Source of the DNA: Mycolicibacterium cosmeticum
Lineage (GTDB): Bacteria; Actinomycetota; Actinomycetes; Mycobacteriales; Mycobacteriaceae
Length of the DNA: 64,000 nucleotides
Assembly (NCBI RefSeq): GCF_000613185.1
Contig: NZ_CCBB010000001.1
Location: 1,550,001-1,614,000, forward strand
Reading direction: 5' to 3'
Of the stretch, positions 18,434-33,558 are shown one piece after another. The number at the start of each line of letters is the position of its first letter. Position 1 is the first letter of the stretch. The translations under genes and the position numbers were made by a program. The notes beneath the pieces were generated by a model that saw only the letters and a program-made list of their open reading frames with translations, was not told the origin of the DNA and made no database searches.

Positions 18434-18447
18434 TCCATCCCTTGCGC

Positions 18448-18476
18448 ATTGTCGACAATAATCTATTGTCGACAGC
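18448..18476. promoter_or_regulatory. double GntR operator (site A) before LLM gene
   Basis: A perfect 12-base palindrome ATTGTCGACAAT (18448-18459) is followed by a second copy, ATTGTCGACAGC (18465-18476), with centres 17 bases apart. The same core recurs before five other units of the cluster, including the GntR gene itself. The sites sit 55-83 bases upstream of the LLM start, a normal operator position. Binding by the GntR protein encoded at 21.7 kb is inferred. Confidence 0.75.
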
Positions 18477-18530
18477 GCGACGCGGCCTTGGCGTCCCTGA
18501 CGAGTCGCTGCAATCAGGAAAAGGTGACAG

Positions 18531-19457
18531 ATGATGGTGCCCCAGCCGGTGCGCGTCCACGGTGCCCCCGCGCGTGTGGGCGTGGTCTGGCGTCCGGACT
18601 TCCCTCCCGGGGCGCTTGCGGAGTTCGCCTGCGCGGCCGAACACGCCGGTGTCGACGAGTTATGGCTGTGGGAAGACTGTTTTCTGCAGGGCGGCATCGC
18701 GCAGGCGGCGGTCGCGCTGGCGCAGACCAGATCGCTCGTGGTGGGCATCGGGGTATTGCCGGCACCCTTGCGCGGCGTGGTTGCGACCGCACTGGAAATC
18801 TCCACGCTGGCAACGATGTTCCCCGGTCGCGTGCAGCTGGCGATCGGACACGGCGTGCAGCGGTGGATGCGTCAAGCAGGGGCCGCGGTGCCGTCCCCAC
18901 TGACCCTCCTGCGCGAATACGTGACGGCCCTGCGCGGCTTGTTGGCCGGCCACACGATCAGCATGTCCGGTGACTACGTCCAACTCGACGCGGTGCGCCT
19001 GCAATTCGTTCCCGATGGTGCGGTACCGGTGCTCATCGGTGGCGCCGGCCCCAAGACGTTGGCGTTGGCGGGCGGAATCGCCGACGGCGTCCTGCTGGAT
19101 TGCCAACACACGGCGTCCAGCGCCGGCACCGCACTCGATCTCGCCGACCGCGCACGGAGTGCCAGCGACATCCCGGACTTTCGTCGGGTGATGTATATCG
19201 CCTGCGCGCCTGGGCCGTTCGCAGCCGAGCGGTTGACGGCGGAAGCCCAGCACTGGAACGTGACGCCGGCCCAGGACTTCGGCGTCGGCGGCTCGGCCAC
19301 CGATATCAGCGCCGCCGTCGAGCCGTACTGCGCCGCCGGACTGGACACCATCGTGCTGCAGCCCATCGGCGAGGAAACCGGCACACCCGATCTTCTGGCA
19401 ACGGCCGCAGCTCTTGTCCGAGCATGGCGGCATCCCTCGTCCAACCTGCCCGGCTAG
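18531..19457 (+). CDS. LLM-class flavin-dependent oxidoreductase (first of cluster)
   Basis: Luciferase-like (TIM-barrel) oxidoreductase of 308 residues using FMN or F420. Typical elements are the N-terminal strand RVGVVWRPDFPPGALAEFAC, ELWLWEDCF, the VVGIGVLPAPLRGVVATALEI segment, FPGRVQLAIGHGV and VPVLIGGAGPKTLALAGGIADG. It is the first gene behind a double GntR operator and directly precedes the deaminase and racemase-type genes. Its place suggests that it oxidises an intermediate of the same route, perhaps the D-hydroxyproline step for which no standard enzyme is found. That is a hypothesis. Start ATG at 18531 follows AGGAAAAGG. Confidence 0.82.
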   Translation: MMVPQPVRVHGAPARVGVVWRPDFPPGALAEFACAAEHAGVDELWLWEDCFLQGGIAQAAVALAQTRSLVVGIGVLPAPLRGVVATALEISTLATMFPGRVQLAIGHGVQRWMRQAGAAVPSPLTLLREYVTALRGLLAGHTISMSGDYVQLDAVRLQFVPDGAVPVLIGGAGPKTLALAGGIADGVLLDCQHTASSAGTALDLADRARSASDIPDFRRVMYIACAPGPFAAERLTAEAQHWNVTPAQDFGVGGSATDISAAVEPYCAAGLDTIVLQPIGEETGTPDLLATAAALVRAWRHPSSNLPG

Positions 19458-19520
19458 TCGATCCGTCCCGCGCCTCGCATTCGGCGAAGCCGGCTTCCTT
19501 CCCCGCATCCAGTGCAGTAC

Positions 19521-19532
19521 ATTGTCGACAAC
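19521..19532. promoter_or_regulatory. GntR operator (site B) before DapA-family gene
   Basis: ATTGTCGACAAC with the core TTGTCGACAA, 52 bases before the start of the DapA-family gene. An extra ACAAT half-site (19535-19539) lies 7 bases downstream of the matching ACAA in the palindrome. The same 7-base spacing occurs at sites D and E, so the operator is probably longer than 12 bases. Confidence 0.72.
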
Positions 19533-19583
19533 ACACAATGACCCAGGTGTGTTGATCCCAGATCCCGACAGAGGAGTTCCCAT

Positions 19584-20474
19584 ATGAGCACGCAGCCGTG
19601 GCACGGCGTGGTGGTAGCGAGTGCGCTGCCATTCCACGCCGATCTATCGGTCGACTTCGATGCCTTCGCCGATCACGTCCGCTGGCTGGCCCAGAACGGC
19701 TGCCGGGGTATCACCCCCAACGGTTCGCTCGGCGAGTACTCATGCCTGAGCGCAGAGGAGAGGGCCAAGGTCGTCGAGGTCGCCGTCGAGACCGCGCCCG
19801 ACGGGTTCAGCGTGGTACCCGGGACCGGCGCCTACGGCTCGCGGGAGGCCACCTTCTGGGCGAGACAAGCCAAGGACGCCGGCGCCGACGCGGTGCTGGC
19901 CCTCCCGCCGAACGCCTACCGCGCCGACGACGACATCGTGTTCGCCCACTACGAAGCGGTCGCTTCGGCCGGCCTGCCGGTCGTGGCGTACAACAATCCG
20001 CTCGACACGAAGGTCGACCTGACGCCGGCGCTGCTGTCCCGCTTGCACGCCGCCGGCCTGATCGTCGCGGTCAAGGAATTCTCCGGCGATGTGCGCAGGA
20101 TCTACGAACTGCAGGAACTGGCGCCCGAACTCGACGTGCTCGTCGGTACCGATGACGTGGTGCTCGAACTCGCGCTGGCCGGCGCCAAGGGGTGGATCGC
20201 CGGCTATCCCAACGCGCTGCCGGCCGCCTCGGTGGAACTGTGGGAGCTTTCGGCGGCCAGGGATCTGGACAAGGCCCTGCCGATGTACCGCGACCTCCAT
20301 TCGTTGCTGCGGTGGGACTCCAAGCCCGCCTTCGTCCAAGCCATCAAGCTGTCGATGGACGTCGCGGGGCGCCCCGGCGGCGCCTGCCGCCCGCCTCGGC
20401 TGGCCCTGCCGGCCGATGTCGCGGCCACGGTGCGCAAGGATACCGAGAAGGCGCTGGCCAGCGGCTACCGCTGA
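19584..20474 (+). CDS. DapA-family lyase, probable pyrroline-4-hydroxy-2-carboxylate deaminase
   Basis: Class I aldolase of the dihydrodipicolinate synthase family, 296 residues. Schiff-base Lys164 (VAVKEFSGD) and Tyr136 (VVAYNNP) are present, along with the GITPNGSLGEY loop. In hydroxyproline breakdown a protein of this family deaminates pyrroline-4-hydroxy-2-carboxylate to alpha-ketoglutarate semialdehyde. That fits the racemase-type gene downstream and the semialdehyde dehydrogenase in the same regulon. A lysine-biosynthesis role is unlikely because the gene is inducible-looking and away from dap genes. GAGGAG precedes the ATG. Other keto-acid lyase activities remain possible. Confidence 0.8.
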   Translation: MSTQPWHGVVVASALPFHADLSVDFDAFADHVRWLAQNGCRGITPNGSLGEYSCLSAEERAKVVEVAVETAPDGFSVVPGTGAYGSREATFWARQAKDAGADAVLALPPNAYRADDDIVFAHYEAVASAGLPVVAYNNPLDTKVDLTPALLSRLHAAGLIVAVKEFSGDVRRIYELQELAPELDVLVGTDDVVLELALAGAKGWIAGYPNALPAASVELWELSAARDLDKALPMYRDLHSLLRWDSKPAFVQAIKLSMDVAGRPGGACRPPRLALPADVAATVRKDTEKALASGYR

Positions 20475-20486
20475 CCGTCAGCAGAT

Positions 20487-20524
20487 CCGTTGGAGGCCGA
20501 AGCACACGCCTTGGCCTCCAACGG
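20487..20524 (+). other. hairpin between DapA-family and racemase genes
   Basis: Perfect 12-base arms (20487-20498 and 20513-20524) around a 14-base loop, followed only by TTT. Without a real U tract it is a weak terminator; it may trim or stabilise the mRNA, or lower expression of the downstream gene. It begins 12 bases after the deaminase stop. Confidence 0.6.
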
Positions 20525-20570
20525 TTTATGGCCACCTACCACGAGATCAACGAGAGAGCGGAGCCAGCCA

Positions 20571-21623
20571 GTGCGGTTCAACAACATGGTCGACGTCGTC
20601 GGCTGCCACGCCGAAGGCGAGATCGGCAATGTCGTCGTGGGAGGCATCGGCAACGTTCCCGGGGACACGATGCTCGACAAGCGCAACTACCTGCAGGAGC
20701 ATCGTGACGATCTGCGCCGGCGGCTTCTGCACGAACCCCGCGGCAACGTGGTGCGGTCGGTCAACGTCGTACTTCCGTCGAACAATCCCGCAGCCGCAAT
20801 GGGTTACGTGATCATGGAGTCCACTGAGTATCCGGTCATGTCGGGCAGCAACACGATCTGTGTGGCCACCGTCCTGCTGGAAACCGGGATGGTGCCGATG
20901 ACCGAGCCCGTCACGACTCTGACGCTGGAATCGCCGGCCGGGCTCATCGACCTGGAGTGCACCTGCCACGACGGCAAGGTCACCAGTGTCCGATTCCTCA
21001 ACCAGCCGGCTTTCGTCTATCACCTGGACGCTCCGATCGAAGTGCCCGGCTACGGCACGGTGACCGTCGACGTCGCTTGGGGCGGCATGGCCTACGTGCT
21101 GGTCGATGCGGCAAGCGTCGGCTTCGCCCTCGAACCGTCCGAAGCCCGTGATCTCTGCGTCGCCGGTCAGGTGATCAAGACGGCGGCCGCCGAACAGCTT
21201 TCGGCGGTTCATCCGGTGAACCCAGCATTCCCGGGCATCACCCAGACGGAGTTCACCACGCCGCTGCGCCGTGTCGACGGGGTGCTGACGGCCCGCAACG
21301 CGGTGATCGTCTCGCCCGGACGGATCGACCGCTCGGCCTGCGGGACCGGCACCTCGGCGCGCCTGGCGGCCATCCATGCCCGTGGCCAGATCGCACCCGG
21401 GGAACACTTCGTCCACCGGTCGATCCTGGACACCCACTTCGATGGCGTCATCGAGCGCGTGACGACGGTCGCGGGCGTGCCCGCGGTGGTGCCGAGCATC
21501 GCCGGGCAGGCGTGGATCACCGACTTCAGCAAGGTGGGGGTCGATCCGAGCGATCCGTTCCCGACCGGCTTCACCCTGTCGGACACCTGGTTGGGACCCG
21601 CCGCGGACCCGTCGACGATCTGA
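20571..21623 (+). CDS. proline racemase-family protein, Ser/Cys type (hydroxyproline epimerase or dehydratase)
   Basis: Cofactor-free enzyme of 350 residues from the proline racemase fold, with two catalytic positions. The first is Ser91 (VMSGSNTICV) and the second is Cys257 (DRSACGTGTSA). Proline racemase and many 4-hydroxyproline epimerases have Cys at both; Ser or Thr at the first position is found in trans-3-hydroxyproline dehydratases and dual-function members. It therefore acts on a hydroxyproline by epimerisation or by dehydration. The GTG at 20571 starts the conserved RFNNMVDVVGCHAEGEIG text. Genes before and after complete the presumed route to alpha-ketoglutarate. Confidence 0.85.
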   Translation: MRFNNMVDVVGCHAEGEIGNVVVGGIGNVPGDTMLDKRNYLQEHRDDLRRRLLHEPRGNVVRSVNVVLPSNNPAAAMGYVIMESTEYPVMSGSNTICVATVLLETGMVPMTEPVTTLTLESPAGLIDLECTCHDGKVTSVRFLNQPAFVYHLDAPIEVPGYGTVTVDVAWGGMAYVLVDAASVGFALEPSEARDLCVAGQVIKTAAAEQLSAVHPVNPAFPGITQTEFTTPLRRVDGVLTARNAVIVSPGRIDRSACGTGTSARLAAIHARGQIAPGEHFVHRSILDTHFDGVIERVTTVAGVPAVVPSIAGQAWITDFSKVGVDPSDPFPTGFTLSDTWLGPAADPSTI

Positions 21624-21674
21624 GGTCGTTCGCCCCCGGCGGGTGCAACCGCGGTCGACGCAGCACAGCGGTGT

Positions 21675-21686
21675 ATTGTCGACTAA
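21675..21686. promoter_or_regulatory. GntR operator (site C), autoregulatory
   Basis: ATTGTCGACTAA, an imperfect copy of the cluster palindrome with one arm altered, ends 21 bases before the GTG of the GntR gene. The close position overlapping the likely promoter suggests that the repressor limits its own synthesis, with weaker binding than at the perfect sites. Confidence 0.62.
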
Positions 21687-21707
21687 ATCCCAAAGAGGGG
21701 GAATGAC

Positions 21708-22391
21708 GTGGCGACCTTCGTTCCGCTGGCACACCAGAAAGCGCCGACCGCGGTGCTCGCTCAGATCCGACAGGCGATTCTGTCCGGCGAATTGCCTGCC
21801 GGCGCGCAATTGCGCGAAGCGCACATCGCCGAGGAGATGGGGATCAGCCGCTCCCCCGTCCGGGAAGCCTTGAGCCGCCTGGAAGAAGAGGGCCTCGTCG
21901 AGAAAGTGCCTTTCAAGGGCGCTTTCGTCGCGTCGGTCTCGCCCGAGACGATCGCCGAGATCGCGGCCATTCGCGCATTGCTGGAGCCGTACGCCGTCAC
22001 CCAGGCGCTACCTCACCTCGGTCAAGCCGATTGGAAGCAACTGCGCAAATTGCTGGAGCAGCTGGACCGCGCGTCCGGCCGCGATCTGGTGTCGGCAATC
22101 GAGAAGCACCTCGCGTTCCACCGCTACTTCTACGAAAAGTCCGGCAACGCAACACTGCTCGCGCTGTGGCAAGACTGGGAGCTGAAGCTGCGGCTGTTCT
22201 TCATCTTCGACCACGAGGCGTTCCAGTCGGCCCAGGATGTCGCAGGCGTGCACGAGGAACTCATCGCCGTCATCGAAACCGGTGACCACGACCGGATCCG
22301 CGAGGCCTTCGGCCACCACGTCCACTTCGCGCCGGGGGTCGAAGTCGGCAATCCATTGCGCGATACCCGCGGCTCGGACCGCTCCGCGTAG
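21708..22391 (+). CDS. GntR/FadR-type regulator of the catabolic cluster
   Basis: Transcription factor of 227 residues. N-terminal winged helix (AVLAQIRQAILSGELPAGAQ, then EEMGISRSPVREALSRLEEE) and a C-terminal FCD ligand domain (about 85-215) containing His residues in LAFHRYFYEKSGN and FGHHVHF that usually hold a metal. Such proteins are normally repressors released by a pathway metabolite. The gene lies between the racemase and permease genes, and TTGTCGAC palindromes stand before it and five other units, which argues that it controls all of them. The inducer may be hydroxyproline or an early product. GTG start after AGAGGGGGA. Confidence 0.88.
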   Translation: MATFVPLAHQKAPTAVLAQIRQAILSGELPAGAQLREAHIAEEMGISRSPVREALSRLEEEGLVEKVPFKGAFVASVSPETIAEIAAIRALLEPYAVTQALPHLGQADWKQLRKLLEQLDRASGRDLVSAIEKHLAFHRYFYEKSGNATLLALWQDWELKLRLFFIFDHEAFQSAQDVAGVHEELIAVIETGDHDRIREAFGHHVHFAPGVEVGNPLRDTRGSDRSA

Positions 22392-22542
22392 TCATAGGCA
22401 CCCGCCCCGACATTGCCCAGCCGATGTCGGGGATTTGTCGTATCCAGCCTGATCACGCCCGCCTTCCCGGGCCGCCGGACCGCGCCCGGAGCGGTGTGTT
22501 CCAGATCGCATTTCCGTCTTGCACGCATCGCCGCTGTGGCAT

Positions 22543-22554
22543 ATTGTCGACAAC
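22543..22554. promoter_or_regulatory. GntR operator (site D) before permease operon
   Basis: ATTGTCGACAAC with the core TTGTCGACAA 70 bases before the permease start, followed 7 bases on by an ACAAT half-site (22557-22561). The half-site overlaps an ATG that opens a 24-residue reading frame, as at site B. Confidence 0.72.
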
Positions 22555-22623
22555 GCACAATGAACCAAGCTGAGATCGAAGGCTTGCACCATCCCACGCC
22601 GACCACCCAGAAGCGAAGAGTCC

Positions 22624-24102
22624 ATGACAGTTGACAATCCCCCACCCGTACCGACGGGAACAGGTAAACCGTTGACCCATACCGTCGCCGACGACGAGCA
22701 CCATCTGCACAAGTACGGGTACAAGCAGGAACTCCATCGAGCGCTCGGCCTGTTCTCCTCCTTCGGAGTCCAGTTCACCTCGATCTCGGTGGGCTCGGTC
22801 GTGTTCACCACGATCGTCGTCGGTTTCGGATTCTTCGGCCCGGCGTCCTTCTGGCCGTTCGTCATCGGCGGCGCCCTGCAGGTTTTCGGAGTGGGTTTGG
22901 CTGTGGCTCAGCTGGTTTCGGCCTTTCCGCTCTCCGGTGGGGTCTACCAGATCGTCAGCCGGCTCGCGCCACGGCAACAGTGGCTCGCCTGGCAGGGCGG
23001 CTGGTGGCTGATCATCGCCCACACCGTGGCGGTGGCCGCACTGTCGGTCAGCATGGTGCCCTTCATCGCGGGCTGGTTCGGTCTCGGTGAACTGTCCGGG
23101 ACGCAGATCACGCTGTTCGCCATCGGCATCATCGTCCTGGTCACCGTGGTCAACATCGCCGGCGTGAAGGCCGCCGCGCTGCTCAACAACATCGGTGTGG
23201 TCGCCGAGGCGGCGATCATCGTCATGGTCATCGTCGCGCTCGTGGTCGCCAAGTACGACCGCGCACCCGCATCGGTCCTCTTCGACACGGCCGGCACCGT
23301 CGGCCCCGGCGGCAACGCCCCCTGGATCGGCTTCCTGTTCGCGATGATCCTGCCGGCGTACACCATCTCCAGCTTCGATGCGACCGGCAACGCGGCCGAG
23401 GAGACCAAGAACGCCGCCCGCACCGCCGCGTGGGGCACCGTGCTGGCCAATACCGCGGCACTCATCGGCGGCACCATCTTCTTCTATCTGCTGGTGCGTG
23501 CGATCCCCGACGTCGACGCGGTGATGCAAAGCGCCATCCCCGTGAAGCTGATCCTGGATTCGGCCGTGGGCAGCACCCTCACCACCATCTTCGAGGCGGT
23601 GGCCATCGTCGCCCTGATGGCCTGCATCGCCATGCTGCAACTGACCGCGGTCCGGGTGGTGTGGTCGCAAGCCCGCGACCGCCAGATGCCCGCGGCGCAT
23701 TGGCTGCACAAGCTGAACGGCAACCGCATCCCCATGAACGCCACCTTCGTGGTCACCCTGATCTCGATCGTGGTGTGCTGCTGGTCCTCACTGCTGAGCG
23801 TGCTCTCGGCGATGACCGCACTGGCGTGGGCACTGGCTTACGGTGTGGTCGTCGTGGTCGGCTTCGTCGCGGTGCTCCGCCGACGGCTGCCCGAGCACCC
23901 CTTCAACCTGAAAGCCGCATCCCCCTTCGTATTCGCCGTCGCCATCGTGTGGTCGATCGTGCTGTGCGCCTTGCTGATCTGGTCGGATTGGCTGCGCGTC
24001 GGCGTCGGCATGCTGGTGGCCATCGCCATCGGATTCGGCATCTACGCACTCATTCCCTCCGCGCACCGCGGCAAACTGGAACGCGAAGGCATCCACGACT
24101 GA
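22624..24102 (+). CDS. APC-superfamily amino-acid permease
   Basis: Membrane transporter of 492 residues with 12 predicted helices, belonging to the amino acid choline transporter branch of the APC superfamily (relatives carry GABA, choline or amino acids). Recognisable parts are LHRALGLFSSFGVQFTSISV, FPLSGGVYQIVSRLAPRQQW and the SSFDATGNAAEETKNAARTA loop typical of the branch. It is first in the operon after operator D, with aldehyde dehydrogenases downstream, so it is the likely importer of the substrate. Hydroxyproline is a good candidate; a betaine or GABA-like compound cannot be excluded. Confidence 0.85.
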   Translation: MTVDNPPPVPTGTGKPLTHTVADDEHHLHKYGYKQELHRALGLFSSFGVQFTSISVGSVVFTTIVVGFGFFGPASFWPFVIGGALQVFGVGLAVAQLVSAFPLSGGVYQIVSRLAPRQQWLAWQGGWWLIIAHTVAVAALSVSMVPFIAGWFGLGELSGTQITLFAIGIIVLVTVVNIAGVKAAALLNNIGVVAEAAIIVMVIVALVVAKYDRAPASVLFDTAGTVGPGGNAPWIGFLFAMILPAYTISSFDATGNAAEETKNAARTAAWGTVLANTAALIGGTIFFYLLVRAIPDVDAVMQSAIPVKLILDSAVGSTLTTIFEAVAIVALMACIAMLQLTAVRVVWSQARDRQMPAAHWLHKLNGNRIPMNATFVVTLISIVVCCWSSLLSVLSAMTALAWALAYGVVVVVGFVAVLRRRLPEHPFNLKAASPFVFAVAIVWSIVLCALLIWSDWLRVGVGMLVAIAIGFGIYALIPSAHRGKLEREGIHD

Positions 24103-24107
24103 ACCCG

Positions 24108-24135
24108 GCAGGGTGGTGCCGAACCACCACCCTGC
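24108..24135 (+). other. hairpin between permease and aldehyde dehydrogenase genes
   Basis: Perfect 11-base arms (24108-24118, 24125-24135) and a 6-base loop start five bases after the permease stop, with no U tract. It resembles an mRNA processing or stability element and could set different amounts of transporter and enzymes. Confidence 0.55.
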
Positions 24136-24176
24136 GGCTCAGCCACCTCCCGCTCACACAAGGAAGACACCACACC

Positions 24177-25625
24177 ATGGCATTCACCGCCCCCGCCCTG
24201 CCCACCGTCGCCAATCTGATCAACGGCCAGTGGGTGGACGGTTCCGGCTCCGAGATCCTGACCGTTTTGAATCCGGGCACCGGTGCGGAATTGACCAGCT
24301 TCTCGTCCTCCACCGCCGAGGATGTCGATCGTGCGGTGGCCGCGGCCCGCGCCGCGCAACCGGCGTGGGCCGCACTCTCGGCCCGGCAGAGATCGGTGGC
24401 GCTACACGCGATTGCGGACGAATTCGTCAGCCGCCTGCCGGAATTCATCGGCCTGGAAGTTCTCGACGCCGGCAAGCCGGTGACCGCCGCCACCGAGGAG
24501 GAACTGCCGGACATCGCCGATTCGGTGCGCCACTTCGCCGGCGCCGCCCGGGTACTCAGCGGTCAGGCAGCCGGTGAATACGTACCCGGCACCACGACAT
24601 TCGTGCGCCGCGAACCGCTCGGCGTCGTCGCCGGTGTCACACCGTGGAACTACCCGCTGTGGCAGGCGGTCTGGAAGATCATGCCCGCGCTGGCCGTCGG
24701 CAACACCGTGGTCATCAAACCTGCCGAGATCACGCCGCTGTCCACCGTGGCATTCGCCGCCATGGCTCAACGGCACCTACCGGCCGGTGTGCTCAACGTC
24801 GTCAACGGCCACGGCAGCGTTGTGGGTGCGGCGCTGGCCGCGCACCCCGGCGTCAACCTGGTGTCGTTCACCGGATCGACCGTCACCGGCCGCAAGATCG
24901 CCGCGGCCGCGGCGCAGCATCCCACCCGGGCGATCCTCGAACTCGGTGGTAACGCACCGGTCATCGTCTTCGACGACGTCGATGTCGACTCCGCCGCCGA
25001 GAGCATCACCGGTGCCGCGCTCTACAACGCCGGCCAGGAGTGCATGGCAGCCACCAGGCTCATCATCGCCGAACCGGTCGCCGAGCGGTTCCTGGACGCC
25101 ATCGTGGCCAACCTCGCGAAGGTCAGACTGGGCGACCCGACCGATGAGTCCACCACGCTGGGACCACTGATCTCGGCCGACCAACGTGACCGCGCCGAAA
25201 AGCTGATCGCCAATCGACCCGCCTCCTCGACCTTGCGGTACGGCGGCAAGCGACCGGACCGGCCCGGCTTCTACCTGGAGCCCACGCTCATCACCGGCCT
25301 CAGCCAGGACGACGACCTCGTGCAGCAGGAGATCTTCGCGCCGGTCATGACCGCGCAGACTTTCACCACCGAATCCGAGGCGATCACACTGGCCAACGGC
25401 GTCGACTTCGGCCTGGCCGGATCGGTGTGGACCCGTGATATCGGACGCGGGCTGCGCGTGGTCAACGCCCTCGACTACGGCAACGTCTGGATCAACAACC
25501 ACCTCGTCGTCGCGCCCGATCTGCCGATCGGGGGCCTGAACGCATCCGGCTACGGCAAAGAGGGTGGGCAACTCGGCATCGAGGAATTCACCCGCGTCAA
25601 GCAGATCGGCATCAGCCTGACCTGA
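24177..25625 (+). CDS. aldehyde dehydrogenase, aminobutyraldehyde dehydrogenase-like
   Basis: NAD(P)-dependent aldehyde dehydrogenase of 482 residues. Catalytic Cys289 lies in NAGQECMAATR and the catalytic Glu in ILELGGNAPVIVF; the VTPWNYPLWQAVWKIMPALA segment and FTGSTVTGRKI are standard. The sequence is closest to PatD-type gamma-aminobutyraldehyde and betaine-aldehyde dehydrogenases. Two aldehyde dehydrogenases in one operon suggest two aldehydes in the pathway, or a broad-range helper. ATG at 24177 follows AAGGAAG with 10 bases between. Confidence 0.87.
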   Translation: MAFTAPALPTVANLINGQWVDGSGSEILTVLNPGTGAELTSFSSSTAEDVDRAVAAARAAQPAWAALSARQRSVALHAIADEFVSRLPEFIGLEVLDAGKPVTAATEEELPDIADSVRHFAGAARVLSGQAAGEYVPGTTTFVRREPLGVVAGVTPWNYPLWQAVWKIMPALAVGNTVVIKPAEITPLSTVAFAAMAQRHLPAGVLNVVNGHGSVVGAALAAHPGVNLVSFTGSTVTGRKIAAAAAQHPTRAILELGGNAPVIVFDDVDVDSAAESITGAALYNAGQECMAATRLIIAEPVAERFLDAIVANLAKVRLGDPTDESTTLGPLISADQRDRAEKLIANRPASSTLRYGGKRPDRPGFYLEPTLITGLSQDDDLVQQEIFAPVMTAQTFTTESEAITLANGVDFGLAGSVWTRDIGRGLRVVNALDYGNVWINNHLVVAPDLPIGGLNASGYGKEGGQLGIEEFTRVKQIGISLT

Positions 25626-25662
25626 CCGATGCACGGAGCCACCCACCGAAAGGCACGACCAC

Positions 25663-27186
25663 ATGACCTACGCCGCCGGCGTCGATCCCCGCACCGCGAA
25701 CCCGCTTCCGGCAGTCACCGAAGAAACCTCCGAGCAGCAGGTCGACAACATCGCCGAGCGCGCCGCGACCGCGTGCGCCGGCCTGGAAGCCATGGGCCGG
25801 CACGGCCGAGGTGAGCTGCTCGACACCATGGCCGACGCGGTGGAGCGGCACCGCGACGAACTCGTCGAGACTGCCGCGCTCGAGACCGGCTTCACCACAG
25901 GAAAACTCGAGGGTGAACTGACTCGCGCCGGGTATCAACTCCGATTCTTCGCCGACGTGATCCGGGACGGCGGCTACCTCGAAGCGACCATCGACCGGGC
26001 GCGCACCACACCGATGGGTCCGCGGCCGGATCTGCGGCGGCTGCTGCTACCGATCGGCCCGGTCGCAGTCTTCGGGGCCAGCAACTTTCCCTTCGCGTTC
26101 TCGGTGCTGGGCGGGGACACCGCCTCCGCGCTCGCCGCCGGATGCCCGGTTGTGGTGAAGGCGCATGCGTCCCACCCGGCCACCTCCAAACTGTCCTTCG
26201 ACGTGTTGGCCGAGGCGATCGCCGGCACGCCGGCACCCGTTGCCGCACTGGGCATCGTGTACGGGCGCGAGGCCGGCGCTCGGCTGGTCGCTCATCCCGC
26301 CATCCGGGCCGTCGGCTTCACCGGTTCGCTCGGCGGCGGAAATGCTCTGTTGGACATCATCAACCGCCGCCCGGACCCGATCCCCTTCTACGGCGAGTTG
26401 AGCAGCATCAATCCGGTGATCGTCACCCCGACGGCCGCCGCGGAACGCGGCGAGGCGATCGCAGCAGATCTGGTCACCTCATTCACCCTCGGAGCCGGCC
26501 AGCTGTGCACCAAACCGGGGCTGGTCCTGGTTCCCGACAACGCCGGCGGTGATGCCCTGGTGCGCGCCGTCGACAAAGCCGTGGCGGAAGTGGCTTCCGC
26601 TCCCCTGCTCAACGAGCGCATCTTCGACAGTTACCGCAGCGGGACACGGGAACTGCGCGAGCATCCGCGCGTGTCCGCCCTGGGCGCTCCCGACGAGAAC
26701 CCCGCCGCCGGCTTCACCGTCGAGCCGATGGCCTTCGAGACCGGTATCGATGATCTGCACGAAGGTCTGGTCACCGAGATCTTCGGCCCGGTCACCGTCC
26801 TGGTGCGTTATCCGGCAGCCCATCCTGACGTTGCCACCCGTTCGGCGCTCGCCGTGCTGCCGTACTCGTTGACGGCCACCATCATTCACGCTGCCGGCGA
26901 GGACGAGTTGCTGGCCCGGCTCACCGACATCACCCGGCCGGCGGCCGGGCGCATCGTCTACAACGGCTTCCCCACCGGGGTCGCGGTCTCGTGGGCCCAG
27001 ACGCACGGCGGACCGTGGCCGTCGACGAACTCGCTGCACACCTCCGTCGGTGCCACCGCGATCCGCCGCTTCCTGCGCCCGGTGACCTACCAGAACGCCC
27101 CGGAATCGATTCTGCCCGAAGAGCTACGTGACGGCTACGAGGCCATCGTGCGCCGGCTCGACGGCGTCGTGACGCTGCCAGGCTGA
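25663..27186 (+). CDS. alpha-ketoglutaric semialdehyde dehydrogenase (2,5-dioxovalerate dehydrogenase)
   Basis: Aldehyde dehydrogenase of 507 residues from the distinct semialdehyde branch: DPRTANPLPAVTEETSEQQV near the start, the IGPVAVFGASNFPFAFSVLG block, VVVKAHASHPATSKL, and catalytic Cys282 in GAGQLCTKPGL. These mark alpha-ketoglutaric semialdehyde dehydrogenases, which turn 2,5-dioxopentanoate into alpha-ketoglutarate at the end of hydroxyproline, arabinose and glucarate pathways. No sugar-acid gene is near, while deaminase and racemase-type genes are, so hydroxyproline is the best fit. It is preceded by GAAAGG and follows the other dehydrogenase by 37 bases. Confidence 0.88.
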   Translation: MTYAAGVDPRTANPLPAVTEETSEQQVDNIAERAATACAGLEAMGRHGRGELLDTMADAVERHRDELVETAALETGFTTGKLEGELTRAGYQLRFFADVIRDGGYLEATIDRARTTPMGPRPDLRRLLLPIGPVAVFGASNFPFAFSVLGGDTASALAAGCPVVVKAHASHPATSKLSFDVLAEAIAGTPAPVAALGIVYGREAGARLVAHPAIRAVGFTGSLGGGNALLDIINRRPDPIPFYGELSSINPVIVTPTAAAERGEAIAADLVTSFTLGAGQLCTKPGLVLVPDNAGGDALVRAVDKAVAEVASAPLLNERIFDSYRSGTRELREHPRVSALGAPDENPAAGFTVEPMAFETGIDDLHEGLVTEIFGPVTVLVRYPAAHPDVATRSALAVLPYSLTATIIHAAGEDELLARLTDITRPAAGRIVYNGFPTGVAVSWAQTHGGPWPSTNSLHTSVGATAIRRFLRPVTYQNAPESILPEELRDGYEAIVRRLDGVVTLPG

Positions 27187-27189
27187 GCG

Positions 27190-27720
27190 ATGACCGTCGA
27201 TCACGGCCATCCCGCGCCGGCACCGTCGGCCGCGACACAGCGGACTCCCGACCACGCGATCACCATGACCGTTCTGATGTCCCCCGACATGGCGAACTTT
27301 TCGGGCAACGTGCACGGCGGTGCCATCCTGAAGACCCTCGATCAGGTGGCGTACGCGTGCGCGAGCACCTTCGCGCGCAGTTACGTGGTGACCCTGTCGG
27401 TGGACCGGGTGCTCTTTCGCGAGGCCATCCATGTCGGTGAACTGGTCACCTTCTCTGCGGCGATCAACTACACCGGACGCACATCGATGGAAGTGGGCAT
27501 CAGGGTCGACACCGTCGAACCCCGCACGGGCGTCACCCGCCACACCAACAGCTGCTATTTCACCATGATCGCGGTAGACGGCGACGGTAATCCCGCTCAG
27601 GTGCCACAGTTGAGGCCGCGCGACCCCCTTGCCGTACGTCGTTACGAAGACGCGCGCCGACGCCGGCGCGCCCAGCGGCGTCAGTTCGAAGGCGAGCACG
27701 CCTGCGAACCCACCGAGTGA
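27190..27720 (+). CDS. hotdog-fold acyl-CoA thioesterase
   Basis: Thioesterase of the YciA/BFIT hotdog group, 176 residues, that hydrolyses acyl-CoA. The signature reads MSPDMANFSGNVHGGAILKT, followed by YVVTLSVDRVLFREAIHVGE; the conserved Asn/Asp-His region precedes the long helix. The tail is arginine-rich (RRYEDARRRRRAQRR), possibly disordered. It begins four bases after the semialdehyde dehydrogenase stop, so it is in the operon. Why a thioesterase is needed for an imino-acid route is unclear; it may deal with an acylated side product. Confidence 0.82.
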   Translation: MTVDHGHPAPAPSAATQRTPDHAITMTVLMSPDMANFSGNVHGGAILKTLDQVAYACASTFARSYVVTLSVDRVLFREAIHVGELVTFSAAINYTGRTSMEVGIRVDTVEPRTGVTRHTNSCYFTMIAVDGDGNPAQVPQLRPRDPLAVRRYEDARRRRRAQRRQFEGEHACEPTE

Positions 27721-27735
27721 AAGCTGGTGTACCCC

Positions 27736-28509
27736 ATGACATCACCCGTAACCATCGTCACGGGAGCCTCCTCCGGGATCGGCGCGGCCACGGCCCAACT
27801 GCTGGCCAGGAAAGGCCACGCGGTCGCGCTGTTGGCGCGCGACGAGGCGGCGCTGCGTGACGTTGCGGCCACCCTGCCCGCCGGCACACCGCAACTGGTC
27901 CGGCCCTGCGATGTGACGGCACCCCAGCAAGTCGCCGAGGCGGTCGCCGCCGTCGTGGAAGAACTGGGAACACCGTTCGGACTGGTCAATGCCGCGGGCG
28001 TCTGCGTGCCCAGCCCGTTACCGCAGACCAGCACGGCAGACTGGGACACGACCCTGGCGGTCAACCTCACCGGCACATTTCTGATGTGCCAAGCCGTCGC
28101 CCCTCACATGTGCGCCTCGAGCGAGGTGGGGAGCATCGTGAACTTCGGCTCCGAAGCCGGGTCGATCGGCATGCCGCACTATTCCGCGTACTGCGCCAGC
28201 AAGGCCGGTGTTCTCGGCCTCACCAGGGCGCTGGCGGCCGAGCTGGCTCCGGCGGTGCGGGTGAACGCCTTGTGCCCGGGACCGGTCGACACTCCGATGC
28301 TGCGCAGCGAATTCGCGTTGACCGGGGATGTCGACAAGGCCTACCGAGCGGAGGTCGACCGGGTTCCGTTGCGTGCCATCGCGACCGCAGCCGAGGTGGC
28401 CGACGCCGCGGTCTGGCTGTTGCACGCCGGTGGCGCCACGGGTACCGCGCTCGCGCTCGACGGCGGAACCACCGTGGCCTGCTACGGCGCCGCGCCGCAC
28501 CAACACTAG
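27736..28509 (+). CDS. short-chain dehydrogenase/reductase
   Basis: NAD(P)-dependent SDR of 257 residues: glycine loop TGASSGIGAATAQLLA, NAAG motif (VNAAGVCVP), Ser in NFGSEAGSIG, and catalytic YSAYCASKAG (Tyr and Lys), then PGPVDTPML. The ATG at 27736 is favoured over a GTG at 27727. In the operon it could oxidise a hydroxyl group of the substrate or reduce a carbonyl. Sequence alone does not say which. Confidence 0.83.
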   Translation: MTSPVTIVTGASSGIGAATAQLLARKGHAVALLARDEAALRDVAATLPAGTPQLVRPCDVTAPQQVAEAVAAVVEELGTPFGLVNAAGVCVPSPLPQTSTADWDTTLAVNLTGTFLMCQAVAPHMCASSEVGSIVNFGSEAGSIGMPHYSAYCASKAGVLGLTRALAAELAPAVRVNALCPGPVDTPMLRSEFALTGDVDKAYRAEVDRVPLRAIATAAEVADAAVWLLHAGGATGTALALDGGTTVACYGAAPHQH

Positions 28510-28534
28510 ACACCCGGCAACACAGGAGACCACC

Positions 28535-29344
28535 CTGACTCTCAAACAGGCACTCAACGTACCCAACGTCGGAAATGCCGACGCCATCGTCGAATTGGCA
28601 GTGCAAGCCGAGGCGGCCGGGTGGGACGGGTTCTTCGTCTGGGACACCCTGCAAACCGAGGCCGCCACGCCCGTCGACGTGCTCGACCCGGCGGCGGTTC
28701 TGGCCGCGATCGCCGTATCGACCTCCCGCATCGCGCTCGGTCCGATGGTCATCGCGCTCCCTCGTCGCCGGCCCTGGAAGGTCGCCAAGGAGATCATCAC
28801 CATCGACCATCTGGCTGGTGGCCGCGTCATCGCCGGATTCGGTTTGGGGGCACCCCCCAAGGAGGAGTTCGCCGACTTCGGTGAGCCGACCGACCTGCGC
28901 GCCCGCGCCGAGTTACTGGACGAGGGCCTTGCCATCATCGACGCGATGTTCGCCGGCCAGAAGCTCGACCATGACGGGCCCGCCTACCGGGTGCATGCGC
29001 ACCTGAGCCCCAGGGGGTTCCAGCGACCACGGCCACCGATCTGGGTGGCGTCCATCGGCACCAACCGCGGACCGGTGGCGCGCGCCCGCCGATGGGACGG
29101 GGTGTTCACCCTCACCGAGGACTTCCAGGGACTCACCCCGGGCGATGTCCATGCGTGGCGGGACCGGGTCGGCCGCGAGGACTCGTACGTCATCACCACC
29201 ACCGCGCGTGCCGGCATCCGATCCCGCGATCTCGAGGCCGCCGGGCTGAACTGGCGCGTCAGCGAACCACCGCACCTGCACAACGACTGGATCACCGACC
29301 TGCGCCCACTCGTCCTGGCGGGGCCCGACGCGTCGGACTTCTGA
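28535..29344 (+). CDS. LLM-class flavin-dependent oxidoreductase with apparent CTG start
   Basis: Luciferase-like oxidoreductase of 269 residues, TIM-barrel fold with FMN or F420. Elements are ALNVPNVGNADAIVELAVQA, WDGFFVWDTL, ALGPMVIALPRRRPWKVAKE, LAGGRVIAGFGLGAP and PPIWVASIGTN. There is no ATG or GTG ahead of the conserved N-terminus: AGGAG at 28523-28527 lies seven bases before a CTG that begins TLKQALNVPN in frame. The next in-frame GTG (28601) would remove the first barrel strand. A CTG start is rare but consistent. Last gene of the permease operon; convergent to the GMC pair. Confidence 0.75.
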   Translation: MTLKQALNVPNVGNADAIVELAVQAEAAGWDGFFVWDTLQTEAATPVDVLDPAAVLAAIAVSTSRIALGPMVIALPRRRPWKVAKEIITIDHLAGGRVIAGFGLGAPPKEEFADFGEPTDLRARAELLDEGLAIIDAMFAGQKLDHDGPAYRVHAHLSPRGFQRPRPPIWVASIGTNRGPVARARRWDGVFTLTEDFQGLTPGDVHAWRDRVGREDSYVITTTARAGIRSRDLEAAGLNWRVSEPPHLHNDWITDLRPLVLAGPDASDF

Positions 29345-29425
29345 CCGGCGTACGTGCACGACGACGGGGGCATCGGGGACGCCTTGTGTCTCAGACCGAT
29401 TCGATGTCGGACCGACGCGTGACCA

Positions 29426-29929
29426 TCATTCGCCGGCAGCCGGGACGTAGATGTGACCGCGTTCCAGCACCGGGTCGAGGATACCGCTGCCGATCTCGTC
29501 GGCAGCCAGTTCCAGTGGTGCCGGGTCGCGGTGCTGGCCCGGGTAGCCGATGAGTTTCATGACTTGAGGGGTCATGAAATAGGCGCCGGCCAACACCGAA
29601 GACATCGGGTCGAAGGTGAACTTGTCCTCGGCGGACATCCTCTTGAGCGCGTCCCACAACTCGCCGTCGGGAACCTCGCTGAGCTTGCAGGCGCCGCCGA
29701 CGACGGCGTCGAACACGTCGGTCCGCGCCGCCAGTGCCAGCTCCAGGTAAGAGGTGTACTGCTCGGCCTCACTGGCTTTCGGATTGGGGCCCGACTCCGG
29801 GATCAGGCAATCGGCCACCCGCAGGAGCGCCGCCAACTCGGTCTCCGTCAGCGCCCGAGGGGGCTGGGTGTTGCGCGGCGGCACGGATAACCGTTGCCGG
29901 GGCACGTGCCGATGTCCATTCGAAGTCAT
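29426..29929 (-). CDS. gluconate 2-dehydrogenase subunit 3-like protein
   Basis: Small subunit of 167 residues of the Gluconate_2-dh3 family. It reads LTETELAALLRVADCLIPES, a helix carrying the family signature, and YLELALAARTDVFDAVVG; MTPQVMKLIGYPG is a later conserved segment. In known systems this subunit pairs with a GMC flavoprotein and helps its export or electron transfer. Its ATG overlaps the GMC stop by four bases, so the two are coupled. No clear twin-arginine motif (RR followed by large hydrophobics) was seen, so export is not supported. Confidence 0.82.
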   Translation of the reverse strand: MTSNGHRHVPRQRLSVPPRNTQPPRALTETELAALLRVADCLIPESGPNPKASEAEQYTSYLELALAARTDVFDAVVGGACKLSEVPDGELWDALKRMSAEDKFTFDPMSSVLAGAYFMTPQVMKLIGYPGQHRDPAPLELAADEIGSGILDPVLERGHIYVPAAGE

Positions 29930-31563
29930 GCGTGTGCCTTTCGGGCCGTGACCTGCTCGACGACACTCTTGGCGACGCGCAGCGCCAGAGCGGTGATGGT
30001 GCAGGTGGGGTTGGCGGATCCAGAGGTGACGAAGATGCTGCCGTCGGCGATGTACAGGTTGTCGACATCGTGGGTCCGGCCGTACGAGTCGACGACGGAG
30101 GTCGCCGGGTCGTCACCCATGCGCGCGGTGCCCAGCAGGTGACCAGGCTGGTCTACCCAGATCTCCTGGGTGAGGACGCGGACGGCGCCCGCCGCCTGGT
30201 GGAGTTCGACCATGCGGTCGACGGTGAATTTCAGTATCTTGCGGGTGTTTTCGCTGATCCGGTATTCGATTTTCGGTGCCGGCAGTCCGTCCCCGTCGAC
30301 CAGCTCCGAGGAGAGGGTGACGCGGTTGTGCAGCTCGGGCAGATCCTCGGTATTGGCGGCCCACAGAATCCCGTTCTGCGCCAGTCGGGCCACGTCATGA
30401 ACCGCCGGACCCCACAAGTCTTCGAAATCGAGTTGTCGGTGGGCTTCGATGGCGTTGAGTGGGCCGGGCGTCGGCAGGATGTGCATCTTGCTACCGCGCA
30501 CGAAGCCGCGGGAGGTATCCGTTTCGTAGAACTGGAGTGAATGGATCAGCTGACCGGCCGGCCCGCGCCAGCTTTCCAGCGGCTCGTCGTAGAACCCCAG
30601 CGCACTGCAATTGGGGTGCAGCATGAGATTTCTGCCCACCATGTCCGACGAGTTGGCCAGCCCGTTGGGGTGTCGGTCGCCGGCGGACAGGAGTAGTAGG
30701 CGTGGCGTACCAACCCCGTTGGCGCACAGCACCACGGTGCGGGCGGCCTGGAACCGCGCGGTGCCGGCGCGGTCGACGTATTCCACGCCGGTGGCCAGCC
30801 CGGTGTCGTCGTCCGTCACCACCCTGCGGACCCGGGCGCCGGTGACGATATCGGCACCGAGCTTCTGCGCCTGAGGTAGATAGATCAGGTCGAAGGACGC
30901 CTTCGCCCCCTGGGGACAACCCCACTCACACGTCCCCCAACGGCCGCACTGCTCAAGGGTTTTGAATTTCTGACTGGCGATGGCGTTGGTTCCCGGCCAC
31001 CAGTGCCAGCCCAGCGCGTTGGCCGCCTGGGCACCCTTGAGCCCGGCCTTCCCGAGCGGATTCGGGGGCAGCGGATAGGTCAGGCCGTCCGGGTAGGCGG
31101 TGTCACCGTCGACACCCGAAACGCCGATGAATGCGTCGACCTCGTCGTGGTACGGCTTGAGGTCATCGTAGGAGATCGGCCAGTCGTCCCCGACGCCGTC
31201 GAGGGTCTTGACCCGGAAGTCGGAAGGCACCAGGCGTGGCCATTCAGCGCCGTAGAAGATCGAACTGCCGCCGACGGCGTTGAACATCACCGGCCACATA
31301 TCGGACTCGGACACGTCGACCGGATAGTCCGCCGGAAGGTGGCGGACGTTGGGATCGTGCGACCAGTCGTGCTGGATCAGCAGTTCCCATTCCGGGTGGT
31401 TTGCCGGGAAGTCACTCGGATTAACCCAGTCACCCTGTTCCAGCACCATCACGCTCAGGCCCGCGGCCGCGGCGGTGTGCGCGACGACCGCACCGGAGGG
31501 TCCGGCACCGATCACGAGCACGTCGACCGTCGACTTCGTTTCACCGGGAGTTTCTGATGCCAT
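29926..31563 (-). CDS. GMC-family FAD dehydrogenase (gluconate/choline dehydrogenase type)
   Basis: FAD enzyme of 545 residues in the glucose-methanol-choline family. The N-terminal loop is VIGAGPSGAVVAHTAAAAG; the middle has CGRWGTCEWGCPQGAKAS, the cysteine-rich sequence typical of bacterial gluconate dehydrogenase-like members; the C-terminus reads TARMGDDPATSVVDSYGRTH and ADGSIFVTSGSANPTCT. It oxidises an alcohol, passing electrons on, with the small subunit encoded next. Operator E lies 97 bases upstream, so it is part of the GntR regulon. It is one candidate for the missing oxidation step. GAGAGG precedes the ATG. Confidence 0.85.
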   Translation of the reverse strand: MASETPGETKSTVDVLVIGAGPSGAVVAHTAAAAGLSVMVLEQGDWVNPSDFPANHPEWELLIQHDWSHDPNVRHLPADYPVDVSESDMWPVMFNAVGGSSIFYGAEWPRLVPSDFRVKTLDGVGDDWPISYDDLKPYHDEVDAFIGVSGVDGDTAYPDGLTYPLPPNPLGKAGLKGAQAANALGWHWWPGTNAIASQKFKTLEQCGRWGTCEWGCPQGAKASFDLIYLPQAQKLGADIVTGARVRRVVTDDDTGLATGVEYVDRAGTARFQAARTVVLCANGVGTPRLLLLSAGDRHPNGLANSSDMVGRNLMLHPNCSALGFYDEPLESWRGPAGQLIHSLQFYETDTSRGFVRGSKMHILPTPGPLNAIEAHRQLDFEDLWGPAVHDVARLAQNGILWAANTEDLPELHNRVTLSSELVDGDGLPAPKIEYRISENTRKILKFTVDRMVELHQAAGAVRVLTQEIWVDQPGHLLGTARMGDDPATSVVDSYGRTHDVDNLYIADGSIFVTSGSANPTCTITALALRVAKSVVEQVTARKAHA

Positions 31564-31659
31564 GGAGACCTCTCTCGAAGGACACCGCCGAAGTGCGGGC
31601 CGCATCGAACGGATGGACGTCGCTCCCGCCATACGGTGCATCGGTCCGCAGATTTGTGC

Positions 31660-31671
31660 ATTGTCGACAGG
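31660..31671. promoter_or_regulatory. GntR operator (site E) before GMC dehydrogenase operon
   Basis: ATTGTCGACAGG, with an ACAAT half-site (31674-31678) at the same 7-base offset as sites B and D. It sits 97 bases upstream of the reverse-strand GMC start and within the 272-base divergent promoter region. Confidence 0.68.
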
Positions 31672-31768
31672 AGACAATTTATTCTGGACTTGATCCCCGT
31701 CGTCGTCAAGTATTCGGCACGCCGGCGCACCCGGCAGCTCATGAGACCAGCAGCGTCGACTGTTGCAC

Positions 31769-31780
31769 ATTGTCGACAAA
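31769..31780. promoter_or_regulatory. GntR operator (site F) before uncharacterised gene
   Basis: ATTGTCGACAAA with the full core TTGTCGACAA, 56 bases before the start of the uncharacterised gene on the forward strand. Together with site E it places both divergent units under the same regulator. Confidence 0.68.
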
Positions 31781-31835
31781 CAACCGATACTGGCCCGGGC
31801 TGCGATCGTCGGCCCCGGCCGCGAGAGGATGGACG

Positions 31836-32312
31836 ATGGAGAAATGGCGTACGGCGCAAGACATTGCAGCAGCCCATGATCGCTTCGCCGCAAGGCTGGC
31901 GGATTGGTGCCCGCCGTACGCGCACGGCGTCGGCCTCATACCGGCCGACGCGCGCACACCTGCGGCCGATCACTTCTCGGTGGTGAACGTCGGGCCGGGA
32001 TCTCTGCCCGGCGTGGTGATGGCCGAGGTGACCGGATATCGCGGCGGAACAGCCGCATACACTCTCGGCCGGGCCGAGCTCGAACGCGCGATCGACCAGC
32101 TGACGCCTGCCGAAGCGTGCACCGAGCACCCCCACCCGAATCTCTGGACCTGGCGTGACACCTACTTGCCCGCTCTGAGCGCCGATCCGCGTGCGCGGTT
32201 GGTAGCAGTCTTCGTGGCCACCGCAGAGACCGGTATCGACGAAGGGGCCGAGGTCACGGCATTCCGGCACGCGCTGGAGATACACCACCGTCACCGCGCC
32301 GGAACCGTCTAG
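31836..32312 (+). CDS. uncharacterised 158-residue protein of the GntR regulon
   Basis: I do not recognise this family. The protein begins MEKWRTAQDIAAAHDRFAAR and is a soluble mixed alpha/beta sequence with tryptophans at the start and in NLWTWRDTYLPAL, no cysteine-rich motif except one Cys in WCPPYAHGVGLIP, and a His-rich end (EIHHRHRAG). No membrane segment or signal peptide is seen. GAGAGGA stands 7 bases before the ATG. Operator F is just upstream and the UPF0303 gene follows 60 bases later. It may be an accessory enzyme or binding protein of the pathway. Confidence 0.7.
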   Translation: MEKWRTAQDIAAAHDRFAARLADWCPPYAHGVGLIPADARTPAADHFSVVNVGPGSLPGVVMAEVTGYRGGTAAYTLGRAELERAIDQLTPAEACTEHPHPNLWTWRDTYLPALSADPRARLVAVFVATAETGIDEGAEVTAFRHALEIHHRHRAGTV

Positions 32313-32883: not shown

Positions 32884-33558
32884 TCATCGCAACGCCTGCA
32901 ATCTGGCGATGGTCTCCTCCGGGGTAGCGTCCGGCCCGACGATGCCGTAGACGATCCGCCCGCAGCACACCGCACTCAACACCCGGTCGGTGAACGCCTC
33001 GACATCACCCCACGGCAGATACGGCTTGGCGATCAGCAGCGCCGCGACACCGTGCACGGCGGCCCACAGCTCCAGCGCCGCGTCCGTCGAATCCCCTTGC
33101 GGGTAGACACCTTCGGCCATCAACGCCTCGATCGACGCGCGCATGTGCTGAAAGGCCGAGCTGGCCAGCGTCACGTCGACATCACTGCCCGGGTTGCCCT
33201 CACCCATGGTCGCGATGCGGTAGAGCTCCGGGGTCTGGCGGGCGAAGCGCACATAGGCCAGCCCTTGGGCCCGCAACACCTCGATCGTGGAGGTCTGGCC
33301 GACCGCGACCCGCTGCATCTCCTCGTCGAGCTTTTCGAAATAGCGCGCGCACACCGCGTCCAGTAGCGCGTCCTTGTCGGCGAAATGCAGGTAGATCGAC
33401 GGCGGGGTGACCCCGACCCGCTGGGCTACCGCCCGGATCGACACCGACTTGGCATGCCCGGTTTCCAGCAGCAGCTCGGTGGTCGCGTCCAGGATCTCCT
33501 CGCGCAACTGGTCACCCGAGCCGCGTGCGGCGCGGCGGCGTTTGAGTGCTTCAACCAC
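32884..33558 (-). CDS. TetR-family regulator coupled to MMPL gene
   Basis: Repressor of 224 residues. DNA-binding part: LREEILDATTELLLETGHAK, then IRAVAQRVGVTPPSIYLHFADKD. The C-terminal ligand domain is of the WHG type (LWAAVHGVAALLIAK). It begins with GTG overlapping the end of the MMPL gene by eight bases, so it is translated after the transporter from one message. It probably senses a substrate of that exporter. A palindrome upstream of the MMPL gene is a suitable operator. Confidence 0.85.
   Translation of the reverse strand: MVEALKRRRAARGSGDQLREEILDATTELLLETGHAKSVSIRAVAQRVGVTPPSIYLHFADKDALLDAVCARYFEKLDEEMQRVAVGQTSTIEVLRAQGLAYVRFARQTPELYRIATMGEGNPGSDVDVTLASSAFQHMRASIEALMAEGVYPQGDSTDAALELWAAVHGVAALLIAKPYLPWGDVEAFTDRVLSAVCCGRIVYGIVGPDATPEETIARLQALR

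Follow-up and report, generated by a model that had tools for sequence, protein, structure and literature searches.

In a 64,000-nucleotide stretch of Mycolicibacterium cosmeticum (contig NZ_CCBB010000001.1, positions 1,550,001 to 1,614,000; hereafter the window), seven copies of a palindromic operator precede six transcription units, gntR among them. The units encode a luciferase-like (LLM-class) oxidoreductase, a DapA-family protein, the GntR regulator itself, a permease operon, a GMC dehydrogenase operon and an uncharacterised protein (Table 1). We interpret them with good confidence as a local regulon under autoregulated GntR repression, in which binding, repression, the oligomeric state and the inducer are deduced from the DNA. 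The sites very probably bind the GntR-type repressor of the cluster.

Allowing up to two mismatches to ATTGTCGACAAT, exactly seven places are found in the window: 18448 matches perfectly, 19521, 22543 and 31769 carry one mismatch, and 18465, 21675 and 31660 carry two. Each of them contains ATTGTCGAC on the forward strand. With up to three mismatches the number rises to 25, compared with a mean of 10.9 (standard deviation 3.05) in shuffled sequences, none of 100 of which reach 25. The distance from the end of the site to the start codon is 71 and 54 bp for the two sites of the LLM gene, 51 bp for the DapA-like gene, 21 bp for gntR, 69 bp for the permease gene, 96 bp for the GMC gene on the minus strand and 55 bp for the uncharacterised gene. 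A preliminary description of this DNA had reported seven palindrome copies before six units, 21–97 bases from start codons and without further intergenic copies. All seven are recovered here with 0–2 mismatches, at measured distances of 21–96 bases, and no other position in the window comes within two mismatches. Its reading as one local regulon marked by a shared operator is supported by this clustering and by the presence of the sites in orthologous clusters.

Table 1. Operators, predicted promoter and genes of the cluster, in window coordinates.
Feature	Position	Strand	Remarks
Operator A1	18442..18465 (24-bp form; 12-bp core 18448-18459)	+	Before LLM oxidoreductase gene; matrix 35.2 bits
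Operator A2	18465..18476	+	Weak second copy without outer boxes; 12.2 bits
Operator B	19515..19538	+	Before DapA-family gene; 34.6 bits
Operator C	21669..21692	+	Before gntR; 27.6 bits
Operator D	22537..22560	+	Before permease operon; both outer boxes; 35.4 bits
Operator E	31654..31677	-	Before GMC operon; both outer boxes; 29.6 bits
Operator F	31763..31786	+	Before uncharacterised gene; left outer box only; 27.4 bits
Predicted permease-operon promoter	22519..22547	+	TTGCAC 22519-22524, 17-bp spacer, TATTGT 22542-22547
LLM-class (luciferase-like) oxidoreductase	18531..19457	+	Target unit 1; PF00296
DapA-family gene	19584..20474	+	PF00701; probable pyrroline-4-hydroxy-2-carboxylate deaminase by context (role as described in PMC4113996, PMC6608401)
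Proline-racemase-family gene	20586..21623	+	PF05544; Ser/Cys pair (SGSNT / DRSACGTG); probable 4-hydroxyproline 2-epimerase
gntR	21708..22391	+	GntR winged helix (PF00392, 2.7e-19) and FCD (PF07729, 2.7e-20), both over cut-offs
Permease operon	22624..29344	+	Co-directional genes
Amino-acid permease	start 22624	+	Permease operon
Aldehyde dehydrogenase	start ~24177	+	Permease operon
Second aldehyde dehydrogenase	start 25663	+	Permease operon
4HBT thioesterase	start 27190	+	Permease operon
SDR	start 27727	+	Permease operon
Second LLM oxidoreductase	start 28535	+	Permease operon
GMC dehydrogenase	31563-29926	-	Relative of fructose and glucose dehydrogenase large subunits
Small-subunit-like gene	29929-29426	-	167 residues; paired with GMC dehydrogenase (unit 29426..31563)
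Uncharacterised gene	31836..32312	+	No Pfam or NCBIfam match; own operator F
TetR-family regulator and MMPL transporter genes	32884-35887	-	At cluster edge; without operator

Genome-wide counts (6.46 Mb) were obtained by pattern search and not by a matrix scan. The 10-bp core TTGTCGACAA occurs at six places, four of which fall within the 13.3-kb cluster (binomial P of about 3e-10). The remaining two, at 1026173 and 1203851, lie inside long open frames, which are at most suggestive of coding because the DNA is G+C-rich. When the core is extended to a 24-bp pattern by the outer TKG and CMA boxes described below, all four places with 0–1 mismatches are cluster sites. Of the five places with exactly two mismatches, two are in the cluster and the other three in open frames of 844, 616 and 192 codons. 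At up to three mismatches the pattern is found at 28 places, compared with 68 for a reversed control, and there is thus no general excess. Restriction to the cluster therefore holds for the 24-bp form but not for looser cores: ATTGTCGAC has 50 matches in the genome (eight in the cluster) and ATTGTCGACAA with up to one mismatch has 81 (11 in the cluster), both counted whether intergenic or not. A distant weak member of the regulon may be among these.

A symmetric 24-bp matrix was derived from 32 sites of seven other close genomes. It places the window sites at ranks 1–7 among all positions of the window, the next position scoring 5.6 bits, a result that is partly expected because the matrix sites are orthologous to the window sites. 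The improvement contributed by the outer bases is what makes the test informative; if just the 12-bp core is scored, site E (15.5) ranks below position 30058 inside the GMC gene (15.9).

Where close relatives of the regulator are found, the operators recur at most of the equivalent positions. A search of 396 genomes of the genus gave 15 with a GntR match at or below 1e-40, the window included, and the nearest named carriers are Mycolicibacterium and Mycobacterium species. Eight of these, again including the window, constitute a close set with GntR sequences that are 64–100% identical (64–96% in the other seven). The remaining seven, together with second copies in two of the eight close ones, give a distant set of 12 matches at 42–50% identity. 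In the close set a site precedes the DapA-family gene in 8/8 clusters, the permease gene in 7/8, the GMC gene in 7/8 (six plus a later-added stretch of G251) and gntR in 6/8, with the window included in each tally. The preliminary description had named equal frequency outside the cluster and absence from orthologous clusters as outcomes that would speak against its reading; the first is not seen for the 24-bp form, nor is the second seen. In all six close clusters that have a gntR operator its right half is degenerate (ACTAA, ACTAG or ACGAA), which suggests a weaker autoregulatory operator. Beside most of the GntR copies of 42–50% identity the core precedes SDR-GMC, gntR, permease or DapA units, in a different gene order.

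Beyond the genus, a match was found in five of 397 genomes of the order (1e-48) and in two of 394 of the class (1e-50), the window being counted in both. G721, from another genus of the same family, carries four exact cores in 16 kb together with GntR, GMC and DapA matches. In G463, from another family, TTGTTGACAA lies near both GntR copies, 143 bp before one gene and on the 3' side of the other. At a more distant GntR locus (L142, positions 6221 and 6243), two copies of TTGTCGACCA stand 22 bp apart in a variant operator arrangement.

The number of exact cores per genome follows the presence of the regulator. It is 5–14 (mean 9.9) in seven genomes with a close GntR, six in the genome of the window, and 1–8 (mean 4.5) in 17 genomes without one (Mann–Whitney P 0.003), the latter being a non-random sample taken from the top of the search list minus three incomplete genomes. 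The reversed pattern gives means of 2.9 and 3.9, respectively. Clustering of cores in the 17 genomes was judged among the matches listed; in G020, where two cores lie 5.6 kb apart, no match to the cluster proteins is found there. Likewise, four isolated cores in regulon-bearing genomes (one in G354, two in G213 and one in G009) have no cluster-protein match nearby.

To describe the operator, 66 sites were aligned in the direction of transcription, position 1 being the first base of ATTGTCGACAAT and position 0 the base before it. The rows were selected manually, each lying before a recognised gene and having no more than one core mismatch, and since orthologous sites are not independent the figure of 66 overstates the sample. 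It comprises 39 sites from the close set, including classes A (LLM), B (DapA), C (gntR), D (permease), E (GMC) and F (uncharacterised gene), and 27 from the distant set, whose permease, gntR, SDR-GMC and DapA classes are counted separately. Not included were near matches that fell within genes or had no recognised gene beside them (L007, L061, L063, L064, L065, L071, L073, L075, L076 and L077), repeated sites in L064–L067, an incomplete site at the end of L071 and sites in L127 and L136–L138.

FadR-subfamily operators are described in PMC4494728 as having the form TKGT/ACMA with 2–3 nt between GT and AC, and the core found here has this form with a gap of 2 nt. Among the 66 rows, preselected as stated, GT and AC are present in every one, 40 fit TKGT-N2-ACMA exactly and 38 are exactly TTGTCGACAA. 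On the protein side, His138, His182 and His204 of GntR are invariant in 29/29 aligned sequences, as expected for the metal-binding type of FadR/FCD regulator. With both domains in place and the three histidines spaced as in Streptomyces coelicolor HypR, the effector is likely to be a metal-dependent carboxylate, the role of the metal being carried over by analogy from the account in PMC6608401. A different regulator, such as the TetR-family protein (32884-33558) whose gene adjoins the cluster, is a very improbable occupant of these sites: no copy within two mismatches precedes tetR or its MMPL neighbour, the operators persist where the TetR protein of the window has no match in stretches that reach past the corresponding place (L064–L067 and L127), and the core has the FadR-subfamily form given in PMC4494728.

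The core is flanked by a further pair of boxes. On the left, positions -5 to -3 are T in 42/66, G or T in 51/66 and G in 50/66 sites; on the right, positions 16 to 18 are C in 42/66, A or C in 56/66 and A in 63/66. The left TKG and right CMA preferences thus mirror each other about the centre of the palindrome. Within the window, T[GT]G or C[AC]A is matched at eight of the 14 places where an outer box could lie, compared with 0.4 in shuffled flanks: a left TKG is present at A1, D, E and F, CCCA at C, and ACAAT after B, D and E. The preliminary description had taken the latter for a third half-site that follows a matching ACAA by seven bases. The extra box exists at this distance, although the inner half of E reads ACAG and not ACAA, and because the preferences are mirrored on both sides it is one member of a symmetric TKG/CMA pair and not a single third half-site.

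The register of the outer boxes differs between the two sets. Among the close-set sites, 27/39 have the right box at 16–18 and 22/39 the left box at -5 to -3, while one base further out there is one of 39 on either side. In the distant set the outer register prevails, with the right box at 17–19 in 18/27 and the left box at -6 to -4 in 9/27, compared with 4/27 and 1/27 at the inner register. The boxes therefore lie 7 bp beyond each inner half-site in the close set and 8 bp beyond it in the distant set. Extra half-sites beside GntR-family operators have already been described by Suvorova et al. 2015 (PMC4494728), who report, in 13 FadR-subfamily groups, weaker boxes of unknown function that flank the site on one side or on both, at 7–12 nt from its centre. 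The weaker TKG/CMA boxes seen here, about 10 nt from the centre, resemble these; the two GntR subgroups compared here differ by 1 bp in the box distance, on the left as well as on the right. Such a shift makes the two related groups a natural data set for the role of extra half-sites near GntR-family operators.

CMA counts also peak at offset 23 (11/66 sites, mainly of classes D and B). This triplet, 7 bp beyond the right outer box (22559-22567 in the window), is present in 6/7 class D and 4/8 class B sites. It is probably a matter of shared descent, although it may be another repeat of the 7-bp step.

The operators overlap promoter-like elements in part of the units. TTGNNN/TANNNT pairs spaced by 16–19 bp accompany 32/66 sites, compared with 3.7 in shuffles. 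In class D the -10 element TATTGT is embedded in the left half of the operator with the -35 element 17 bp away, a geometry that is the same in 7/7 sites, and in the distant permease class the -10 element extends into the left half-site in 8/8. In class A the operator lies within the promoter spacer in 5/6 sites; A1 occupies the 16-bp spacer between TTGCGC (18442-18447) and TATTGT (18464-18469) of a predicted promoter. Both LLM-gene operators interlock with this one promoter, with A1 in the spacer and the left half of A2 over the -10 TATTGT.

This proximity raises the question of whether the outer boxes are themselves promoter hexamers, that is the TTG of a -35 and the A/T of a -10 element held at a fixed distance from the operator, and not contacts of the regulator. 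We regard this as a tentative alternative with support in class A, where the left TTG is the predicted -35 in 5/6 sites and the right TA begins the predicted -10 in four of those five. In class D, however, where the -35 and -10 elements start at other positions (-23 and 0), 7/7 sites still have the left box and 6/7 the right one. The mirror relation of the two boxes across the 66 sites and their joint outward move by one base in the distant GntR set also argue against it, and promoter hexamers are less likely than regulator contacts.

Since the operators overlap the -10 element or the promoter spacer in part of the units, blocking of the polymerase is the most likely action. Activation from upstream sites is described for some FadR-subfamily proteins (PMC6608401), and the operators of the distant DapA class themselves provide the predicted -35 element in 4/4 sites, which leaves the mode open there. 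Activation, alone or combined with repression, is nevertheless improbable for the regulon as a whole given where the operators lie in classes A and D and in the distant permease class, positions at which they would block polymerase. With promoter and operator overlapping in several units, autoregulated repression of a hydroxyproline-type regulon is the most likely arrangement. A GntR dimer would bind the core TTGT-CG-ACAA, and the TKG/CMA boxes 7 bp outward on each side would probably strengthen or extend this contact, for example through a second dimer. The bound repressor would cover the -10 element or the -35/-10 spacer of the target promoters and keep the target units off, the promoter of gntR probably being repressed more weakly. 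An intermediate of a hydroxyproline-type imino acid may then release the repressor.

Several observations weigh against autoregulated repression at all six units, in addition to the selection and dependence of the 66 rows and the orthology of the matrix sites. Site A2 is weak, at 12.2 bits compared with 27.4–35.4 bits for the other six. No TTGNNN/TANNNT pair is present at the window sites B, C, E and F, and such pairs are few in these classes (1/8, 1/6, 2/6 and 1/3, respectively) as well as in the distant gntR (0/8) and SDR-GMC (1/7) classes. L062 and L063 have no gntR site within two mismatches, and no site was found in the stretch examined for L074, the second GntR copy of G290. At the order and class level, the exact core is absent near GntR in three of the four genomes besides G721 (G751, G586 and G771); two of these have variants such as TTGTCGACCA or TGGTCGACAA, and nothing of the sought form is found in L139.

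The system adds a well-supported member to a known class of gene switches. Proteobacterial HypR is a GntR-family protein, often autoregulated, that controls genes for an epimerase, an oxidase, a DapA-family deaminase and a semialdehyde dehydrogenase (PMC5343134 and PMC4494728, citing White et al. 2012). It forms a FadR-subfamily group with 2 nt between GT and AC (PMC4494728), like the operator described here. The present regulon belongs to another phylum, no D-amino-acid-oxidase-type enzyme was found in the cluster, and GMC, LLM, thioesterase and SDR genes are added. The likeness concerns regulon content and operator form and not an established orthology of the regulators. The S. coelicolor HypR (SCO6294), also of the FadR subfamily, is described as repressing a hydroxyproline regulon and, more weakly, its own gene, whose -10 element it covers (PMC6608401). 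Its FCD histidines (142/186/208) have the same spacing as those here (138/182/204). Its motif CTNTGC(A/C)ATGTCAC has no clear palindrome, unlike TTGTCGACAA, and the dehydrogenase of its regulon is a predicted three-subunit D-hydroxyproline dehydrogenase, unlike here (PMC6608401). Atu1419 (PMC7797058), a tetrameric FCD regulator, shares with our system 10-bp palindromes, a metal-binding three-histidine FCD domain and some operators over the -10 element. As a tetramer it is able to bridge palindromes separated by 190 bp, whereas the regulator described here is proposed to bind as a dimer. A literature search for the letters TTGTCGACAA returned nothing on a GntR regulon among the matches listed, judged by title and start of abstract, and a search joining GntR, hydroxyproline, mycobacter- and proline racemase returned only S. 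coelicolor HypR (PMC6608401). The present sites give a mycobacterial FCD regulator a precisely defined, testable operator and set of targets, and they tie six units, including the uncharacterised gene and the GMC/small-subunit dehydrogenase, to one catabolic programme.

As to the nature of this programme, both the Ser (SGSN) and the Cys (DRSACGTG) motif are found in 11/13 relatives of the racemase-family protein, only the second being matched in L073 and L079. PMC4113996 describes a Ser/Cys member as a 4-hydroxyproline 2-epimerase and a Ser/Thr member as a trans-3-hydroxyproline dehydratase. Thr occupies the second position in 4k7g, the solved chain that matches best. The top NCBIfam model is that for trans-3-hydroxyproline dehydratase, with a score of 424 bits against a cut-off of 550. 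The Ser/Cys enzyme of the cluster probably fits a 4-hydroxyproline 2-epimerase. For the DapA-family protein and the two aldehyde dehydrogenases the NCBIfam models shown are all below their cut-offs. By sequence family, the epimerase-like protein, the DapA-family protein and the two aldehyde dehydrogenases match the hydroxyproline pathway, save for the oxidation enzyme. No D-amino-acid-oxidase-type enzyme is present among the Pfam-scanned cluster proteins, the rest of the genome not having been searched.

The best candidate for the missing oxidation is the GMC/small-subunit pair, although its substrate could be another imino acid or an alcohol. The GMC protein matches PF01266 at residues 13–45 only. 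It was found in nine distant-set clusters, at 80–84% identity in eight of them and at 62% in L077, despite the 42–50% identity of GntR. The 167-residue protein has a relative in M. komossense that is named gluconate 2-dehydrogenase subunit 3 in UniRef. A literature search combining GMC oxidoreductase and hydroxyproline gave no paper on such a pathway, judged by title. A bolder and rather doubtful proposal joins these observations to the outer boxes: the four-box arrangement TKGT-NNN-TTGT-CG-ACAA-NNN-ACMA would load two FCD dimers or a tetramer, with box distance co-varying with GntR subgroup, and the GMC pair (or the LLM enzyme) would replace the D-amino-acid-oxidase-type oxidation. If true, this would be a hydroxyproline-type pathway with a fructose-dehydrogenase-like oxidation step.

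Of the seven other close genomes, three (G109, G354 and G251) have a relative of the uncharacterised gene, with 68–76% identity. The window also has a gene for an HbpS-like protein (haem-degrading family) at 32373, without an operator before it; at L008:20481 and L127:4582 a further operator precedes an HbpS-like gene.

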